A stretch of DNA of 38,619 bases. It comes from Deltaproteobacteria bacterium. Its GTDB lineage: Bacteria > Desulfobacterota > GWC2-55-46. Shown here one piece after another: positions 29,625-38,244 of this stretch. Numbering within the stretch: the stretch's first letter is position 1; every line of letters begins with the position of its first letter. Position numbers and translations under genes: made by a program. The DNA is taken from NCBI GenBank assembly GCA_016213015.1, contig JACRCE010000040.1, positions 1 to 38,619 of the forward strand, written 5' to 3'. The notes under the pieces were generated by a model. The model made no database searches and had not been told where the DNA came from. It worked only from the letters and a program-made list of their open reading frames with translations.

Positions 29625-29666
29625 GTATAGCTTAGTTTGCAAAATTTCTTATTAGGAGGCTTTTCA

Positions 29667-29945
29667 ATGAAGAGAATGTTCGTAGTAGCAGTTGCCATGA
29701 TGGCAACAGTGGCGTTCGGCACGATGACGCTTGCAACGGCAGAGGAAAAGGCCGCAGCCCCGGCACCGGCGGCAACAGCAGCACCGGCAAAGGCGCCGGA
29801 GGCGAAGAAGGAAGAGAGAAAGCCTGAAAAGAAGGCGGAAAAGAAGAAGAAGAAGGCCGCAAAGAAGGAAGAAGCAAAGAAGAACCCATGCGCCGCAAAG
29901 CCGGCCACACCGGCAGCAGCACCAGCACCGGCACCGGCCAAGTAA
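29667..29945 (+). CDS. Lys/Ala/Pro-rich exported small protein
   Basis: A 92-aa protein starting at ATG 29667, ten bases after AGGAGG. Residues about 1-27 are a signal peptide (..TLATA). The rest is nearly all Ala, Pro, Lys and Glu: AAAPAPAATAAPAK-type segments, then EKKAEKKKKKAAKKEEAKK, a single Cys in NPCAAK, and a Pro/Ala tail. The low-complexity basic stretch resembles histone-H1-like or acid-shock-type proteins, but export would put it in the periplasm. I do not recognise a family. It is followed by a strong terminator at 29970, so it is a single-gene unit with its own promoter region. Confidence 0.75.
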   Translation: MKRMFVVAVAMMATVAFGTMTLATAEEKAAAPAPAATAAPAKAPEAKKEERKPEKKAEKKKKKAAKKEEAKKNPCAAKPATPAAAPAPAPAK

Positions 29946-31328: not shown

Positions 31329-32003
31329 ATGTCCAATGTAGCCGAACTTGCAAGACTCGTCGAGGCAGGGGAAAACGTCAAGGCAGTGGCCGAGGCGGAG
31401 CGTCTGTTTTTGAGCGGGGTTTCCGTGCAGAACATCCTGACGGAAGGGCTTGTCGCGGCGCTCCGCGCATTGAGCCACAAGTGCACCACCGAGAACTTTC
31501 AGCTTCTTGACGTGCTCCTCGCTTCCCGCGCAATGGTGGAGGTTATCGATCAGGTCGTGGCGCAGGAGATTGAAAATGGGATGGATCGGATAGCCGCAAT
31601 GCACGAAGCGCGGATGGACGGCGATAACTGCAAGAAAACCCTTGTGATAGGCACCATAGAAGGCGACGTGCACGACCTCGGCAAACACCTCGTTGCCACG
31701 GTCTCGCGCATATCCGGGATCAGGGTCGTCAACCTCGGCAAGGACGTGCCGCCGCAGGCCTTCGTTGACGCCGCGGTCAGGGAGAGGGCGCATATAATCG
31801 GCGTGTCGAGCCTTATGACCGTGTGCCTTCCTTCCATAAACAAGATAAGACCGCTTGCCGAAAAAAGCGGCATATCTCCCGTCATAGTAGCCGGTGGAGC
31901 GGCGGCTCAACAGGTGGAAAAGGGCTATCTCGACGTTGATTACGTCGCGTTCGACGTCTTCGACGGCCTGAACTATTTTACGAAGCTCCCCTACCTTTCT
32001 TGA
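31329..32003 (+). CDS. Corrinoid (B12-binding) methyl-transfer protein
   Basis: A 224-aa cytoplasmic protein of the MtaC/MtbC/MtgC type. Residues about 1-95 form a helical cap (B12-binding 2, MtaC-like). Residues about 105-220 form the Rossmann-like B12 domain, with the DxHxxG base-off/His-on motif as DVHDLG (His115), then IIGVSSLMT and VIVAGGAA. Such proteins carry a methyl group on cobalt between two methyltransferases. No substrate-specific methyltransferase (MtaB, MttB or MtgB) lies in the window; the next gene encodes a UroD-RACo fusion that may reactivate this protein. GGAGG at 31301 is too far to be the ribosome-binding site of ATG 31329. Confidence 0.88.
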   Translation: MSNVAELARLVEAGENVKAVAEAERLFLSGVSVQNILTEGLVAALRALSHKCTTENFQLLDVLLASRAMVEVIDQVVAQEIENGMDRIAAMHEARMDGDNCKKTLVIGTIEGDVHDLGKHLVATVSRISGIRVVNLGKDVPPQAFVDAAVRERAHIIGVSSLMTVCLPSINKIRPLAEKSGISPVIVAGGAAAQQVEKGYLDVDYVAFDVFDGLNYFTKLPYLS

Positions 32004-32239: not shown

Positions 32240-35125
32240 ATGATGACATCTTATGAACGTGTAAAGGCCGCGATAAGGTTCGAGAGAACGGACAGACCTC
32301 CGGTCATACCTGAGGTGGCCGGAGTTACGGCCGTGCTCAAAAAAGCCAACGTTCGGAAGTATGTTACCGACGGAGCTTTTCTCGCCGAGTGCCAACTGGC
32401 CGCTCAGGAGCATTTCCGGTATGACGCCGTGATCGCGTTCGCTGACCTGTGCGTCGAGGCCGAGGCGATCGGGTGCGAGCTTAAGTTCCCTGAAGACAAC
32501 TACCCCTACGTTACGAAGTGCGCCATTGATTCCATAGACGGCCTATCGTCCCTGTCCGTGCCCGACCCCCTTTCCAGCGGCAGGATGCCTGAGGTCGTCA
32601 AGGCCGTAGAGATCATGAAGAACAGATGCGGTTGCGCTGTCCCTGTCGTAGCCCACGTCCTCGCGCCCATGACCATAGCGGCGCGGATTATCGATATAGA
32701 AAAGATGCTCTACATGATCGTGGACAGGCCCGATGATTTCAAGAGGCTTCTTTCGTATACGCTCGACGTGGCTCTGCGCTACGCAAGGGCGCTGATAGAG
32801 GCCGGAGCGGATTGCATCATCATGTTCGACCCGGCGGCCTCCCCGGCGGTGCTTCCGCCGAGGCTCTTCAAGGAGTTCGAACTGCCGTGTCTCAACAGCC
32901 TTTTTCGTTTCATCAAGGAACTCAACAGTGAGGCTATAACGTGGTACAGCGTAGCCGGTCCCACGCAGGATCTGCTCAAAGACCTTGAGTCCACCGCGCT
33001 CGACATAATGACCATAGACTATCTCGTCCCCTTGGACGTCGCCTTTGAGCGCTCATCCACGTTGTGTTTCAACGGCAACGTCAAATCCATCTCCTTCACG
33101 GAGGCCGGCCCGGATGAAATATACGGGGCGGCGTCAAGGTTGTTGGAGACCTCCTTAGACCGCGGCGGCTTCATACTCGGGTCAGGATGCGAGGTTCCAC
33201 CCGACGCGAAACCGGAGAACGTCCATGCGCTTGTCAGGGCGGCTGAGGATATTTCGTCGAGATACGGCGAGTACGGGACGAGCGGACTTGACAAGAGATG
33301 CGTTACGTTCCATCCATATCAGAAAAAGGTCTGGGTCCACGAAGGGACAAGCCTTATGGACGTTGCCGGCGCCGGCGACATTACCATCCCTCATCTGTGC
33401 CAGAAGGCCGGGGTATGCGGATCGTGCGTCGTGCAGGTGGAGAGCGGCGAGAAAAGCGATATGACGGCAAAAGAAAAGCTGGTGTTGACCACTGAGCAAA
33501 AGGCGAAGGGCTACAGGCTCGCGTGCCAGACCCGCGTCTCTTCGGACATGGATATCTTCGTGCCGAGGTCCTATCGGATAGGTCATTCACAGCGATTATA
33601 CAGGAAAGACCGTTTCGACGGCTCGGTTGAACGTCTGCTGGCACAGTATCCCCTCAGCCCGGCGATAAAGACGGTTGAGCTAAAGACGGGACAGGGGCCG
33701 GGCGTATCCGACATAGACACGGTGCTCGGGCCTGTAGCCGATGGAATCGAGATAAAACCGGAACTTCTTCAGAAAATGACGAAGCTTGCGAGGCTGGAAA
33801 ACGGCCGGATGTGCGCCGTAACGGACAGGGACGGCAAGAGGCTGTTGAATATCGCGGTGGCCGGGACGGTCCTCGGCGTTGCGTTGGACATAGGCACCAC
33901 CACCATAGCGGCCTATCTGCATGACCTGAAAACAGGCGCGTTTCTCGGGAGCGCCTCCGCGATAAACCCGCAATCGCCTATGGGCGACGACGTTATGACA
34001 AGGGCCGCAAAGGAGATAAGCGGCAACGGCGCGGCCCGCGGCAGGTTGCGGCGTCTCCTTGTTGACGGCGTAAACCGCTTGATCCTGAATATAACAAGGG
34101 AAGCCGGGGTGGATTACAACAACATATACCATCTGGTGGCCGTGGGCAACGCCGTGATGCACCACAGCTTTCTCGGCCTCGATCTGAAATACCTCGTCCG
34201 GTCTCCGTTTGTTCCGGTATTGACCTCGTCGTATGAATATTCCAACAACGACACGGACGCCGGCAACAGGCTTGCAATGAATGCGAACGGAAGGATAACC
34301 TGTCCGCCCATAATCGGCAGTTTCATAGGCTCGGACATCTCCACGGGCTTGATAGCGGTAGGGTTTCATAGGTCAAAGGAGACCGTCCTTTTCATTGACC
34401 TCGGCACAAACGGCGAGATAGCGCTCGGAAACAAGGACAGGGTGCTCGCCACGTCCATTGCGGCCGGCCCGGCCTTCGAGATGTCATATACGTCAGGCGG
34501 CTCCACCGCCGCCGCCAATATTATATATGAAGTGGATATAGACGACGACTACAGGGTAAGCTACAAGACGATAGACAACGGCAAACCGGCAGGCTACTGC
34601 GGGAGCGCCCTGATCGACACGGTGGCCTCCTTCCTCAAGCTCGGCATCCTCGATGAGAGAGGGCATTTCGTCGAAAAACAAGGATGTATGTCCTTGGACG
34701 ACGGGCGCTACATACTCCTGCCCAAACAGGAGACCGCCTTTTTCGAGCCTATCGTTATAACCGCAGGGAATATCGAAGAGGTGCAGAAGGCAAAAGCGGC
34801 GGTAAAGGCGGCCATAACCGTGATTACAGGGAGGTACGGCATAACCCTTGAACGGATAGACAGGGTCATCCTCACGGGCGCCTTCGGGATGAACCTGCGC
34901 GTGGACAACGCCGCGCGCATCGGATTGATACCGGAGGCCGTCAGAGGCAAGGTCGAGTTCATGCAGAATGCGGCCGGGGCCGGAGCCAGGCTTTGCCTGC
35001 TCTCGACGAAGGCCGTGGACGACCTCAATGAATTTGCTGGAAAGATCGAGTACATACACGCCGCCACGGACGAAAGGTTCAACGACATATTCATAGATTC
35101 GATGTTCTTCCGACCAACGGCATGA
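32240..35125 (+). CDS. UroD/MtaA-like domain fused to RACo-type corrinoid activator (DUF4445)
   Basis: A 961-aa cytoplasmic protein with three parts. Residues 1 to about 340 are a uroporphyrinogen-decarboxylase-fold domain like methylcobamide:thiol methyltransferases (MtaA/MtbA). About 350-445 is a plant-type 2Fe-2S ferredoxin with Cys387, 393, 396 and 429 (C-x5-C-x2-C-x32-C). From about 548 is the ASKHA/DUF4445 part (LDIGTTTIA; DLGTNGEIALGN near 717; TGAFGMN near the end) of RACo-like ATP-dependent corrinoid reductive activators. MtaA-type enzymes bind zinc through a His-x-Cys and a later Cys. Here the His-x-Cys positions are Tyr236 and Val238, with only Cys317 kept, so methyl transfer to a thiol looks unlikely. 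It probably reduces and reactivates the corrinoid protein encoded just upstream. ATG 32240 or the next codon. Confidence 0.87.
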   Translation: MMTSYERVKAAIRFERTDRPPVIPEVAGVTAVLKKANVRKYVTDGAFLAECQLAAQEHFRYDAVIAFADLCVEAEAIGCELKFPEDNYPYVTKCAIDSIDGLSSLSVPDPLSSGRMPEVVKAVEIMKNRCGCAVPVVAHVLAPMTIAARIIDIEKMLYMIVDRPDDFKRLLSYTLDVALRYARALIEAGADCIIMFDPAASPAVLPPRLFKEFELPCLNSLFRFIKELNSEAITWYSVAGPTQDLLKDLESTALDIMTIDYLVPLDVAFERSSTLCFNGNVKSISFTEAGPDEIYGAASRLLETSLDRGGFILGSGCEVPPDAKPENVHALVRAAEDISSRYGEYGTSGLDKRCVTFHPYQKKVWVHEGTSLMDVAGAGDITIPHLCQKAGVCGSCVVQVESGEKSDMTAKEKLVLTTEQKAKGYRLACQTRVSSDMDIFVPRSYRIGHSQRLYRKDRFDGSVERLLAQYPLSPAIKTVELKTGQGPGVSDIDTVLGPVADGIEIKPELLQKMTKLARLENGRMCAVTDRDGKRLLNIAVAGTVLGVALDIGTTTIAAYLHDLKTGAFLGSASAINPQSPMGDDVMTRAAKEISGNGAARGRLRRLLVDGVNRLILNITREAGVDYNNIYHLVAVGNAVMHHSFLGLDLKYLVRSPFVPVLTSSYEYSNNDTDAGNRLAMNANGRITCPPIIGSFIGSDISTGLIAVGFHRSKETVLFIDLGTNGEIALGNKDRVLATSIAAGPAFEMSYTSGGSTAAANIIYEVDIDDDYRVSYKTIDNGKPAGYCGSALIDTVASFLKLGILDERGHFVEKQGCMSLDDGRYILLPKQETAFFEPIVITAGNIEEVQKAKAAVKAAITVITGRYGITLERIDRVILTGAFGMNLRVDNAARIGLIPEAVRGKVEFMQNAAGAGARLCLLSTKAVDDLNEFAGKIEYIHAATDERFNDIFIDSMFFRPTA

Positions 35126-35138
35126 GAATCGTAAAGAC

Positions 35139-37109
35139 ATGGTAAAGAGCCTGAAAGAGTCGGGCGCCCATATCGGGTTCGGGATAAAGGCGAAGTTCCT
35201 CGCGATGGTCTTCCTGTTGTTTGCGATAGTAGTCGTGAACTTCTTCATAATGTTGATGATGTTGGAGACACAGAGGCAGGACGCCTTTCTGATCAACATC
35301 GCGGGCAGGCAGAGGATGCTCTCGCAGCTCATACTCAAGCTCGCCAACCGGAATCTGCTTGAAAAGAACAGGTTGCTCAATTCAAGGGCTGGCGGGAGCG
35401 CGGACACGCTCAAGGAGATAACCGCTTCTCGCCTGCATTTCCATAATATTGCACACGCGATGATGAACGGCGGCGACGTTACCGACGCCCTCGGCAATAC
35501 CGTCAGGATAAAAAAGGTAGAGTCCGTTGAGGCCGTGGCCGCGCTTAACGAGATGCGCCTCAGGTGGCGCCTGTTCGACGACATCCTCTTAAACGACCTC
35601 ATTGGAAATGGAGGCATAGCGGCCAGTACCGCGGCCTTCAAACGGCTCGACGAGCTTGACCTTCTCGGGTCTATAGATACGGCGGTCAACGTCATAGCAA
35701 GGGAGGCCGAAGAAAAGGTTACTCTGCTTCGCAACATCCAGATAATCGTCCTCGGCTTCGGCTTCGCGCTCCTCGGCGCGGTAATATGGTTTTTCAGAGT
35801 ATCGGTGTTAAGGCCGGTAGAGCGCCTCGTCGAGACGGTCATGGCAATCGGCGACGGCGACGTGGGAAGAAGGGCCGTGGTCATGAGCGGCGATGAGATA
35901 GGCTTTCTCGCAAGGTCGTTCAACGCGGCCATGGACAACCTCGAGAAGACGACCGTATCGAGGGACTATCTCGGCCACGTCGTCAACGCGATATGCGACT
36001 CGCTCATCGTAACCAACAGGAACAGGGAAATAGTGATGGTCAACCCGGCAACGGCTCAACTGCTCGGCAACGCCGACGAAAAGGAGATCATCGGCCTGCG
36101 CGTGGACGAAATAGCCGTGGCGGCCGCGCCGACGAAGAGGAACAGGAGGCTTTTTACGCCGCAGACGTTTGAAAAACTCCTTGAGCAGGGCTTTATAAGA
36201 AACTATAACGTCGCGTACCGCGGCAAGACCGGCAACCTCATACCCGTCTCCTTCAGCGCCAGTATACTGCACGGCAAGGCGGGGGGCTTCGACGGGCTTG
36301 TATGCGTGGCAAAGGACATGCGGGAATACAACATGATGCAGTCGTCGCTGATGCAGTCGGCCAAGCTCGCGGCGCTCGGCACCATGAGCGCGGGCATGGC
36401 GCACGAGTTGAAAACGCCCTTGACCGTAGTGAAGGGAAAGGCGCAGTTCCTCATCTTTCAGCTCATGGAGGGCAAGGAGCCTTCAAAGGACGACATCATC
36501 AAGGACATGGAGCTGGTCATCGCAAGTTCGGACAGGATGGCCTCGATAATAAACCACCTGAGGAACTTCTCAAGAGAGTCCAAGGATCGGGACTGGACAT
36601 ACCTGAGCGTGGAAGAGGTCATTGACGACTCCCTGATATTGATAGGAAAAAGGTTGAAGGGAAAGGGGATAACCCTTGTACGGGATATCCCGGCCGGTCT
36701 GCCTCAGATATGGGGGGACAGGAACAAGCTCATATCGGTCTTTCAGAATCTTATGTCGAACTCCTTTGACGCCTTTGAGCCTGTAACTGACGCAAGGGAA
36801 AAAACGATACGCATATCCGTTGCGCCGGAGGAGGGCGACAAACTGCGCGTAACGTTCGAGGACAATGCAAGCGGCATGGAAAAAGAGATACTCAACAACA
36901 TATTCACCCCGTTTTTTACTACCAAGGACGTGGGCAAGGGCACCGGCCTCGGCCTGTCTCTATTGTATGGTATAATAGAAGAGCACGGGGGGAACGTTAC
37001 CGTAACCTCCGTCCCTGACAAAGGAACCGCATTCACCATCGTCTTCCGGCTTAACGGGCAAAACGCAAGGAACGGCAACAAGGCCGCGGGAGGGCGGGAT
37101 GGGCAATAA
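35139..37109 (+). CDS. Sensor histidine kinase with PilJ-type, HAMP and PAS domains
   Basis: A 656-aa membrane kinase. A transmembrane helix near residues 18-42 is followed by a periplasmic PilJ-type sensory domain with the GRQRMLSQ motif (NIAGRQRMLSQL, as in nitrate-sensing-like proteins), a second helix near 205-225, a HAMP linker and a PAS domain (VNPATAQLLGN..). HisKA has His422 in GMAHELKTPL, and HATPase shows NLMSNSFDAF and KGTGLGLSL. It should sense a periplasmic ligand, possibly an anion, and phosphorylate the receiver protein encoded next, whose gene it overlaps by 11 bases. The start follows the previous stop by 13 bases. Ligand and output are unknown. Confidence 0.88.
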   Translation: MVKSLKESGAHIGFGIKAKFLAMVFLLFAIVVVNFFIMLMMLETQRQDAFLINIAGRQRMLSQLILKLANRNLLEKNRLLNSRAGGSADTLKEITASRLHFHNIAHAMMNGGDVTDALGNTVRIKKVESVEAVAALNEMRLRWRLFDDILLNDLIGNGGIAASTAAFKRLDELDLLGSIDTAVNVIAREAEEKVTLLRNIQIIVLGFGFALLGAVIWFFRVSVLRPVERLVETVMAIGDGDVGRRAVVMSGDEIGFLARSFNAAMDNLEKTTVSRDYLGHVVNAICDSLIVTNRNREIVMVNPATAQLLGNADEKEIIGLRVDEIAVAAAPTKRNRRLFTPQTFEKLLEQGFIRNYNVAYRGKTGNLIPVSFSASILHGKAGGFDGLVCVAKDMREYNMMQSSLMQSAKLAALGTMSAGMAHELKTPLTVVKGKAQFLIFQLMEGKEPSKDDIIKDMELVIASSDRMASIINHLRNFSRESKDRDWTYLSVEEVIDDSLILIGKRLKGKGITLVRDIPAGLPQIWGDRNKLISVFQNLMSNSFDAFEPVTDAREKTIRISVAPEEGDKLRVTFEDNASGMEKEILNNIFTPFFTTKDVGKGTGLGLSLLYGIIEEHGGNVTVTSVPDKGTAFTIVFRLNGQNARNGNKAAGGRDGQ

Positions 37110-37470
37110 GGCCAGAATATTGGTAGTGGACGACGACGCCCGGTTGATCGAGCTTTATATGATCTGGCTTGCCGCATGGGGCTATGACGTTACCCCGGCT
37201 GAAGGCGGCAGGGAGGCGCTGACGCTTATAGACAGCGACGACTACGCGCTCGTGATATGCGACGTGAAGATGCCGGAGATCTCCGGCATTGACGTGCGAA
37301 AGAGGCTTACGGAGAAGCACCCTGACACCCCTTGCATCCTGATTACCGGCTGCGACAGGGAAGACAACCAGATTACGGCGATGATGAACGCGAAGCTGGA
37401 TCATTACATGGAAAAGCCGGTTGACTTCAGCGCGCTGAGGAAGGTGATCGAGGAAGCCGTCAAACATTAA
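37099..37470 (+). CDS. Single-domain response regulator
   Basis: A 123-aa receiver-only protein with acidic triad DDD near residues 11-13, phosphoacceptor Asp55 (LVICDVKMPE), a Thr in LITG, and Lys106 (HYMEKPVD). It has no output domain, so it may act by protein-protein contact or in a phosphorelay. It overlaps the kinase gene and is surely its partner by position. The gene is followed by the 37479 inverted repeat. Confidence 0.88.
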   Translation: MGNKARILVVDDDARLIELYMIWLAAWGYDVTPAEGGREALTLIDSDDYALVICDVKMPEISGIDVRKRLTEKHPDTPCILITGCDREDNQITAMMNAKLDHYMEKPVDFSALRKVIEEAVKH

Positions 37471-37563: not shown

Positions 37564-38244
37564 TCAGTCCTTGTACAGCACCTCTTTCACCTTGAGCTTC
37601 AACTCCTCCACCCAGAACGGGTTGCCCTTCTGAATGAAGCCCTTGACGTGCAGGTCGAACCACTTGTGGTCCGCTATCATGTCGTCAAGGATGTCCTTGC
37701 CCGTGGTGATTATGGCCGGCAATTCGACGCCCGAGTCTATTATCCTCTTGATCAGTTCTTCTCCGTCAAGCTGAGATTCCGGGTCGGCCTGATTTTTAAG
37801 GTGCAGGTCCGAGACGATGAGGCTGAACTTCTGTTTCTTTATCGCCCTGAGCGCCTCCGAGCTGTTCTTGGCCATTACCACCTCGATGCCCGAATCGAAA
37901 AGCTGGCTCTCGACCATTGCCCTGGCGATCATGTCGTCTTCGATCATGAGTATTCTGTCGGTTATCGGAACAGGGGCCTTTATCTTTGCCGCGACGTCGC
38001 TCAAAGCGGCAGAGGGAGTCGATCCCTCGCCGGCTTCTTTGATCGCAACGATGCTGAATCCGTCCGTGGTTTTCTTGGCCTGATATTTGGCCCCGCACAG
38101 CACGCAACTCAGCGTAAGTCCCTGTTTCGCGGTTTCATGGATGATGGCAAGAGGCAACCACAGCCTGAATCTTGAGCCGCAGGCAACGCAGTCGATCTCA
38201 AGCGGTTCTTTTTTCTGTGTCATGGTAGTTGTTGTCTGGGACAT
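37564..38244 (-). CDS. Zinc-ribbon/receiver-domain protein
   Basis: A 226-aa protein, minus strand. Residues about 15-60 contain two CxxC pairs (C19/C22 and C47/C50), as in a zinc-ribbon or MJ0042-type finger. A linker leads to a receiver domain (ILMIEDD near 98-104, phosphoacceptor Asp146 in LIVSDLHL). It has no output module beyond the zinc ribbon. ATG 38244 is used; ATG 38223 is an equally possible start. It converges on the PilJ-kinase/response-regulator pair across the 37479 palindrome. A role in two-component signalling is clear from the receiver, but partner and target are not known. Confidence 0.8.
   Translation of the reverse strand: MSQTTTTMTQKKEPLEIDCVACGSRFRLWLPLAIIHETAKQGLTLSCVLCGAKYQAKKTTDGFSIVAIKEAGEGSTPSAALSDVAAKIKAPVPITDRILMIEDDMIARAMVESQLFDSGIEVVMAKNSSEALRAIKKQKFSLIVSDLHLKNQADPESQLDGEELIKRIIDSGVELPAIITTGKDILDDMIADHKWFDLHVKGFIQKGNPFWVEELKLKVKEVLYKD

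Follow-up and report, generated by a model that had tools for sequence, protein, structure and literature searches.

CdmB and the related UroD-fold methyltransferases I MtoB, MtvB, OdmB and VdmB are catabolic and operate with a methyltransferase II (PMC13222342). Among them, CdmB is a zinc-free, substrate-selective scaffold that lets a substrate reach the Co(I) of its corrinoid partner, and it depends on an ATP-driven activator that is a separate protein (PMC13222342). Two other groups of proteins link related chemistry to signalling. RdmS and MsmS of Methanosarcina acetivorans are reported to be redox-sensing kinases without an H-box that are linked to metabolic methyltransferases (PMC11784639), and CarH and the photocobilins are B12-dependent photoreceptors, in which a cobalamin-binding domain serves as the input and which have links to diguanylate cyclases (PMC11796333). 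Here, we compare these systems with a locus in a 38,619-nucleotide stretch of DNA (JACRCE010000040.1, positions 1 to 38,619 of the forward strand; hereafter, the window) from a Deltaproteobacteria bacterium (Desulfobacterota, GWC2-55-46; GCA_016213015.1). All features of the window described below are on the + strand.

Domains of the fused protein and the zinc site

One uninterrupted ORF (positions 32240–35125) encodes a protein of 961 residues, and the ORF check, the Pfam matches and the structure matches bear out the UroD, 2Fe-2S ferredoxin and RACo architecture that had been read from it in a preliminary description. The protein consists of a UroD/MtaA-type barrel (residues 4–336, positions 32249–33247; PF01208, 1e-71), a 2Fe-2S ferredoxin domain (residues 361–433, positions 33320–33538; PF00111 (Fer2), 1.4e-13), a RACo middle domain (residues 545–711, positions 33872–34372; PF17651 (Raco_middle), 3e-43) and a RACo C-terminal ASKHA ATPase domain (residues 714–959, positions 34379–35116; PF14574 (RACo_C_ter), 2e-67). 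The last 3 domains all exceed their Pfam cut-offs and are arranged as in RACo-type activators, and the ferredoxin cysteines (C387, C393, C396 and C429) lie exactly where the preliminary description had placed them.

Residues 355–957 match RACo (3zyy) with 306.9 bits and 31% identity, and the AlphaFold2 model of the fused protein (mean pLDDT 85.8, pTM 0.62) gave a predicted structural match to 3zyy in Foldseek with an E of 1.7e-45; the AcsV family score is 356 against a cut-off of 800. The activator resembles RACo/AcsV and the O-demethylase activating enzymes in its 2Fe-2S cysteines and its middle and ASKHA domains, but differs from them in that (i) it is located behind a UroD barrel; (ii) it is paired with an MtbC-like corrinoid protein in place of CoFeSP; and (iii) the activators of this kind of locus precede a sensor and in one case are fused to one (described below).

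The best characterised structural match of residues 6–337 is MtbA (4ay7), to which the modeled barrel aligns in Foldseek with a TM of 0.91 to the target and an rmsd of 2.0 (phmmer, 2.4e-27). The barrel scores below the curated cut-offs of TIGR01463 (174.7; cut-off 235.4), MtaA (141.4; cut-off 400) and MtbA (106.7 bits; cut-off 600). It shares with MtaA/MtbA (4ay7; TIGR01463) the UroD fold, the corrinoid protein partner and the distal Cys, but has no His-x-Cys zinc pair, and no CoM pathway is evident. In a pairwise alignment with MtbA and an alignment of 74 rows, the His-x-Cys zinc ligands of MtaA/MtbA correspond to Ser237-x-Ala239 (positions 32948–32956), and the distal ligand position is retained as Cys317 (positions 33188–33190). 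The loss of 2 ligands with Cys317 alone remaining, as first described, was thus confirmed, whereas the numbering, given as Tyr236 and Val238, was one residue off. The Cys of the His-x-Cys pair is replaced by Ala or Thr in 56/56 members of the clade to which the UroD domain belongs and is kept in 18/18 outgroup proteins; the distal Cys is invariant in both groups (56/56 and 18/18). A complete zinc site, which the preliminary description had considered for closer relatives, was found by alignment in none of the 56. The predicted loss of zinc, judged from residues, is a mark of this 56-member clade and is older than the fusion of UroD with RACo.

Neighbouring genes and the linkage of the clade to signalling

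The gene upstream of the fusion (positions 31329–32003) encodes an MtbC/MtaC-like corrinoid (B12-binding) protein of 224 residues (B12-binding, 9.8e-20; B12-binding_2, 1.1e-5), which carries the cobalt-ligand motif DxHxxG as DVHDLG, scores 86.7 bits with TIGR02370, under its cut-off, and is the sole short stand-alone B12-binding protein of its genome. Downstream, 13 bases past the stop codon of the fusion, starts a gene for a 656-residue histidine kinase (positions 35139–37109) with a PilJ-type N-terminal sensor, HAMP, PAS, HisKA (9.4e-11) and HATPase_c (1.5e-23) domains. It overlaps by 11 bases with a gene for a single-domain response regulator (positions 37099–37470; PF00072 (Response_reg), 1.8e-23), and the kinase and the adjoining receiver protein have the layout of a two-component system. 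The order in the window is thus corrinoid protein, fusion, PilJ-HAMP-PAS kinase and response regulator. The kinase and response regulator were absent from the preliminary description, and the main result of this study lies outside the coordinates it covered.

Searches of the window genome for the families PF01208, PF06253 and PF00809 revealed (i) no MtaA, with a single further UroD protein (PF01208) that is HemE-like; (ii) no MttB (PF06253); and (iii) no corrinoid:THF-type methyltransferase, the Pterin_bind (PF00809) matches being a FolP-like ORF and an 811-residue MetH-like ORF. The absence of a free MtaA or a substrate methyltransferase, originally noted for the window, thus extends to the whole genome for these families.

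In the clade, the UroD protein has a corrinoid protein as its companion and, in nearly all cases, a RACo-type activator as well. The corrinoid ligand motif and the RACo cysteines are preserved across these cassettes, with C-x5-C-x2-C and RLAC motifs in nearly all cassette RACo proteins. We searched the 3.5 kb downstream, in the same orientation and independently of gene calls, for a histidine kinase, a GGDEF or the sensor domain described below. A signalling gene (histidine kinase or diguanylate cyclase) follows the cassette in 60/62 evaluable clade loci from approximately 13 phyla, a count that is not fully independent, since MAG contigs make up many of the loci and several of the loci nearly duplicate one another. 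By contrast, the same test was positive in 0/20 ordinary RACo loci and in 1/14 zinc-bearing UroD loci. The outputs behind the cassette (n = 51) include 26 HATPase and 16 GGDEF proteins, and any further neighbour family recurs in at most 4 clade loci.

A dedicated sensor domain (AQYL) is present in 56 of the 62 clade loci and occurs almost exclusively behind the cassette. In the phylum, it was found in 3/395 genomes, every time behind a cassette, and in 9 cassette genomes it shares a contig with the sole cassette UroD. In one locus (L088), RACo, the AQYL domain and GGDEF are in one ORF. The AQYL domain is predicted to have a GAF fold: its model (pLDDT 95.3) matches 1vhm with a VIA Z of 14.7 (143 residues, rmsd 3.4), and its Z is above 12 for many other GAF domains. 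Of 29 members, 7 are recognised by the Pfam model GAF_2, with 2.5e-8 as the best value, and the reference member is not. The AQYL domain is absent from the kinase of the window and from its fused relatives. Four loci (L056, L072, L073 and L081) lack RACo and keep the sensor. L053, the closest relative, has neither a downstream sensor nor an adjacent corrinoid gene.

The cassette is widespread and appears to be undescribed. No description of it was found in a search of open-access journal papers, and a census of c-di-GMP stimuli makes no mention of cobalamin or corrinoid.

A proposed corrinoid-based sensory input and its alternatives

The best reading of the cassette is that half of a corrinoid methyltransferase system has been reused as a sensory input, and the fused protein, known here from genomes, is probably the core of such a corrinoid-based input module. 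This reading is favoured because (i) signalling genes are found at nearly all clade loci and hardly at the control loci; (ii) the outputs vary, as expected of an input module; (iii) the AQYL domain is tied to the cassette and, in L088, joined to both RACo and GGDEF; (iv) the zinc Cys is lost throughout the clade while the corrinoid motif and the RACo cysteines are kept; (v) the window genome has no MtaA, MttB or corrinoid:THF-type methyltransferase in the families searched; and (vi) biochemical work has established both a UroD scaffold without zinc and the ATP-driven reduction of corrinoids (PMC13222342, PMC6739815). The absence of the AQYL domain from the window kinase and its fused relatives, the missing sensor and corrinoid gene beside L053 and the members without RACo weigh against it.

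From the observed gene order (a corrinoid protein, then the zinc-free barrel and the ferredoxin-RACo activator, and last a histidine kinase or a diguanylate cyclase), domains, residue loss and clade-wide signalling linkage, we infer a mechanism of 4 steps. RACo, through its 2Fe-2S cluster and ATP, would set the corrinoid protein to Co(I). The zinc-free barrel, which may plausibly present or gate the corrinoid protein, would dock it and control access to the cobalt, comparable to the substrate channelling of CdmB. A methyl donor (which we favour), an oxidant or another cobalt ligand would then convert the cofactor to CH3-Co(III) or Co(II), and the altered corrinoid or UroD complex would be the message, with no second methyltransferase to take the methyl group off. 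The adjoining sensor would read this state, mostly via the GAF-type domain and in the window via the PilJ-HAMP-PAS kinase, and would relay it through phosphoryl transfer or through c-di-GMP. The fusion found in the subclade of the window would fix the stoichiometry of barrel and activator. Light sensing of the CarH type was set aside because the corrinoid protein is, by family, of the methyltransferase kind; CarH and the photocobilins are light-based single proteins, whereas the cassette has its own barrel and an ATP-driven activator. More tentatively, and at somewhat less than an even chance, the cassettes may represent a previously undescribed class of B12-dependent chemosensors, in which the methyl-accepting corrinoid/UroD/RACo half feeds kinases and cyclases through a GAF-type domain, in about 13 phyla of bacteria and, it appears, some archaea.

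The cassette could instead sense redox state or oxygen, with oxidation of Co(I) to Co(II) as the signal, RACo and ATP setting the threshold and the reset, and the barrel as a substrate-less cap or dock; we regard this as unlikely. Corrinoids in the Co(I) state are oxidised very readily, and ATP and the activating enzyme are needed to reactivate them, with midpoint potentials near -500 mV (PMC6739815). The zinc chemistry is gone, and 3 cassette sensors carry a Tll0287-like domain, and one of these sensors, that of L096, has a CxxCH haem-type motif. However, a threshold set by RACo leaves unexplained the sensors kept in members without RACo, and the barrel is complete in all clade members, which seems more than a dock needs, a weak argument.

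An ordinary catabolic or detoxifying methyltransferase, with a CdmB-like methyltransferase I, RACo for upkeep, a distant second methyltransferase and a kinase or cyclase that is merely co-regulated or regulating, is improbable. CdmB demonstrates that a UroD-fold protein may lack zinc and still be a genuine methyltransferase I (PMC13222342), and the clade resembles CdmB in its UroD fold, its lack of a zinc site (by residues) and its corrinoid neighbour. Methyltransferase-associated kinases are likewise known in Methanosarcina, where RdmS and MsmS, compared by description, have genes linked to corrinoid/UroD-type methyltransferases, but no RACo cassette has been described for them (PMC11784639). 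One holder of the cassette, Acetobacterium tundrae, is an acetogen with 33 UroD matches. In the tree, which contains no sequence labelled CdmB, the clade is separated from all sampled A. tundrae UroD proteins (support 100/100), and those with HHSD-type motifs are in another part. Where the CdmB group has a methyltransferase II, the cassette has a signalling gene, and its recurrent neighbours among the clade loci include no second methyltransferase, substrate enzyme or transporter. The methyltransferase families missing from the window genome, the diguanylate cyclase outputs, the sensor–GGDEF fusion of RACo in L088 and the retention of the sensor where RACo is lost also argue against a catabolic role.

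Very improbable is the original proposal that the UroD domain only docks the corrinoid protein and delivers it to the fused activator, with no part in signalling. The loss of zinc ligands, the constant corrinoid partner and the RACo company agree with it, and the activator is fused in 5 genomes including that of the window. These are L096, in which the fusion arose independently on the UroD tree, and L053, L111 and L112 (Brocadiaceae, Planctomycetota and Nitrospinales MAGs), which form one clade with the window (support 100/99). However, UroD and RACo are separate genes in most clade members, including the cultured A. tundrae DSM 9173, Desulfobacter latus AcRS2 and Thiorhodococcus minor DSM 11518, and some UroD proteins have no RACo, so delivery is not a general role; the signalling linkage is left unexplained, and the zinc site was lost before the fusion arose. 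Separate genes in homologues, which the preliminary description had named together with an assembly join as speaking against its idea, were thus found, and the join was not. The fusion was found in 0/40 relatives from the family and order of the source genome, most of which hold just a separate RACo-like gene, and no relative of it was found in the viral contigs searched. Within the putative, sensory-looking input cassette, the fusion is a late feature. An artefact joining 2 genes by a frame or contig error has a negligible probability: the parts are separate in most relatives, and in L046 (same record as L069) they lie in one frame and are separated by just one TAA, but 4 other genomes from 2 origins carry the fusion, which rules out an assembly join.

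Implications for corrinoid biology

If the sensory reading is correct, the methyl-transfer chemistry of B12 would serve as a chemical or redox sense, beyond metabolism and light sensing, in a receptor with a built-in, energy-driven reset. Such UroD and RACo genes would be unsafe as markers of C1 catabolism. The reading would also account for the zinc-free UroD proteins and RACo-type activators of organisms that have no evident corrinoid methyltransferase pathway.

Architecture, zinc site and origin of the fused protein

The preliminary description read a single ORF as a fusion of a UroD/MtaA-type barrel, a ferredoxin, and a RACo activator. The ORF runs without interruption (32240–35125, 961 aa), and all of these parts were found by Pfam above the cut-off, namely URO-D (residues 4–336), Fer2 (residues 361–433), Raco_middle (residues 545–711), and RACo_C_ter (residues 714–959), and were matched in the AlphaFold2 model. 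The closest solved relatives are MtbA 4ay7 for residues 6–337 (98.7 bits) and RACo 3zyy for residues 355–957 (306.9 bits). The model (mean pLDDT 85.8; pTM 0.62, which leaves relative domain placement uncertain) matched 4ay7/4ay8 with a TM-score of 0.91 to the target and an rmsd of about 2, and 3zyy with an E-value of 1.7e-45.

The claimed loss of two zinc ligands was borne out by alignment, except that the residues named (Tyr236 and Val238) were one position off: the His-x-Cys of MtbA corresponds to Ser237 and Ala239 of the fusion, and the retained distal ligand is Cys317. Among the 56 members of the zinc-less UroD clade to which the fusion belongs, 48 have Ala and 8 have Thr at position 239 and none has Cys, whereas all 18 zinc-bearing outgroup relatives have Cys there; loss of the zinc Cys is therefore a mark of the entire clade. 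Position 237 is His in 39 clade members, Asn in 9, Ser in 5, Phe in 2, and Gln in 1, compared with His in 18/18 of the outgroup. Cys317 is invariant in both groups, Trp235 is retained in 55/56 clade members, and the residue after the GN[IL] motif, acidic in 15/18 outgroup proteins, is Lys in 50 clade members and Arg in the other 6. The additional His loss marks the subclade of the window and some others, and neither loss is tied to the fusion.

Genome contigs were searched with a profile built from five aligned UroD domains, which yielded 80 loci. Judging by the length and content of their contigs, genomes G204, G359, G179, and G082 of the phylum search correspond to the records of loci L096, L069, L067, and L081, respectively. 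A branch with full support (100/100) separates the zinc-less clade (56 rows) from the rest of the UroD tree. The window protein groups with those of L053 (Brocadiaceae), L111 (Planctomycetota), and L112 (Nitrospinales), every one fused (support 100/99); the fifth fusion, L096, sits with the split L099, and two changes are thus needed on the tree. The fusion was not found in 40 genomes of the window's own family and order, which suggests that the window genome acquired it horizontally.

A cassette linked to signalling genes

Gene maps of most loci show the order corrinoid protein, UroD, ferredoxin-RACo, and signalling protein, the genes often overlapping or lying ≤20 bases apart. In the window, the corrinoid gene (31329–32003) precedes the fusion; a histidine kinase gene with PilJ-type sensor, HAMP, and PAS domains (35139–37109) starts 13 bases past the fusion's stop and overlaps a response regulator gene (37099–37470) by 11 bases. 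Convergent to the latter is a gene (37564–38244, minus strand) whose receiver-like product bears cysteine pairs at its N-terminal end (CVACGS, CVLCGA). The ORF at 29637–29945 (plus strand) encodes a small protein that is probably exported and ends in a low-complexity tail rich in Ala, Lys, and Pro.

A search independent of gene calls covered the 3.5 kb that follow RACo on its own strand (or UroD, where RACo was missing). A kinase core, GGDEF, or the shared sensor domain (described below) was present in 60/62 evaluable clade loci, counts that are not fully independent owing to near-duplicates (e.g., L062/L079, L077/L085, L087/L094, and L072/L081). The same test was positive in 0/20 loci with an ordinary RACo in the phylum of the window and in 1/14 zinc-bearing UroD outgroup loci. 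Pfam matches among 51 downstream proteins comprised HATPase_c (26), HisKA (25), GGDEF (16), and PAS_4 (28), and comparison of 415 neighbouring proteins revealed no further family in >4 loci. By record label, the clade covers 14 phyla, named strains included, with a sensor present in 13; L057 (Armatimonadota) is without one. In L056, L072, L073, and L081, UroD is followed by a sensor and RACo is missing. A Desulfobacterales MAG (L071:2305–8042) carries two tandem corrinoid-UroD pairs, the second corrinoid ORF being short (165 aa), which precede a single RACo and a single kinase of 1291 aa. The cassette also occurs on archaea-binned contigs (L073, Lokiarchaeota MAG; L122, Methanothrix MAG), where binning error is possible.

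The shared sensor domain and its replacements

A homologous domain of ~165 residues with the motif FIKxAQYLAxL was found in 56/62 downstream regions. In its model (pLDDT 95.3), a long helix follows a GAF-like fold, yet Pfam GAF_2 matches just 7/29 members. The domain occurs in 3/395 genomes of the phylum, behind the cassette in all three. Nine cassette genomes were searched whole, and in each the domain shares a contig with the sole cassette UroD and lies ≤3 kb from it; in one of the nine, G425, a further partial match turned up on a different contig, either a second copy or a fragment of the same gene.

The domain was not found in the genomes of the window, L111, L112, and L053, nor at locus L080. 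These members constitute the fused subclade and its sister, in which the partner is a PilJ/HAMP/PAS or a PAS kinase. The stop codon of the fusion and the start of the kinase gene overlap in L112. In L053, no sensor was found downstream and no corrinoid gene is adjacent; a HATPase-receiver ORF lies upstream at the contig end. In a Nitrosomonadales MAG (L088:5034–7790), RACo with ferredoxin, the shared GAF-type domain (residues 553–715), and GGDEF form a single 919-aa ORF that reaches the contig end, a direct fusion of activator to signal. Three sensors (L096:4492–6300, L099:9604–11421, and L071:8057–11929) have an added N-terminal part ahead of the shared domain; the L096 sensor has a CxxCH haem-type motif (CLSCH), and a Tll0287-like match occurs in three downstream sensors.

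Possible function of the cassette

At 2.27 Mb in 117 contigs (98.7% complete), the genome of the window contains one other UroD, which is HemE-like, and no MttB was found; Pterin_bind is limited to a FolP-like ORF and an 811-aa MetH-like ORF. Its 21 B12-binding matches all lie in frames of 451–881 aa, except for the corrinoid protein of the window, which alone is short and stand-alone. Thus, no methyl-unloading route was found among the families searched (UroD, MttB, and Pterin_bind). A second RACo-like protein (L052:8181–9437, contig C29; 418 aa, without ferredoxin) is encoded upstream of purH/purD/purE-like genes, has similar genes in most of the 40 family and order relatives, and is possibly a reactivator for the MetH-like protein.

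RACo-kind enzymes drive Co(II) corrinoid to Co(I) with ATP, as established for CoFeSP and O-demethylases (PMC6739815), and the zinc-free UroD-fold protein CdmB is a substrate-selective scaffold whose partner corrinoid attacks haloalkane through Co(I) (PMC13222342). By analogy with both, the cassette would set its corrinoid to Co(I); like CdmB, it may select what alkylates or oxidises the corrinoid, which would then be reset. In contrast to the CdmB and O-demethylase systems, a sensor occupies the place of methyltransferase II, and the signal would lie in the corrinoid's state or in that of the corrinoid-UroD complex. We lean towards a methyl donor rather than redox as the stimulus because the full barrel is conserved, a weak argument.

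Each component belongs to a known family, and methyltransferase-associated kinases (RdmS and MsmS; PMC11784639) and B12 photoreceptors (CarH and photocobilins; PMC11796333) have been described. No account of the cassette or its dedicated domain was found in the open literature, subscription papers being outside its scope, and there is a real chance that the cassette represents a new class of sensor.
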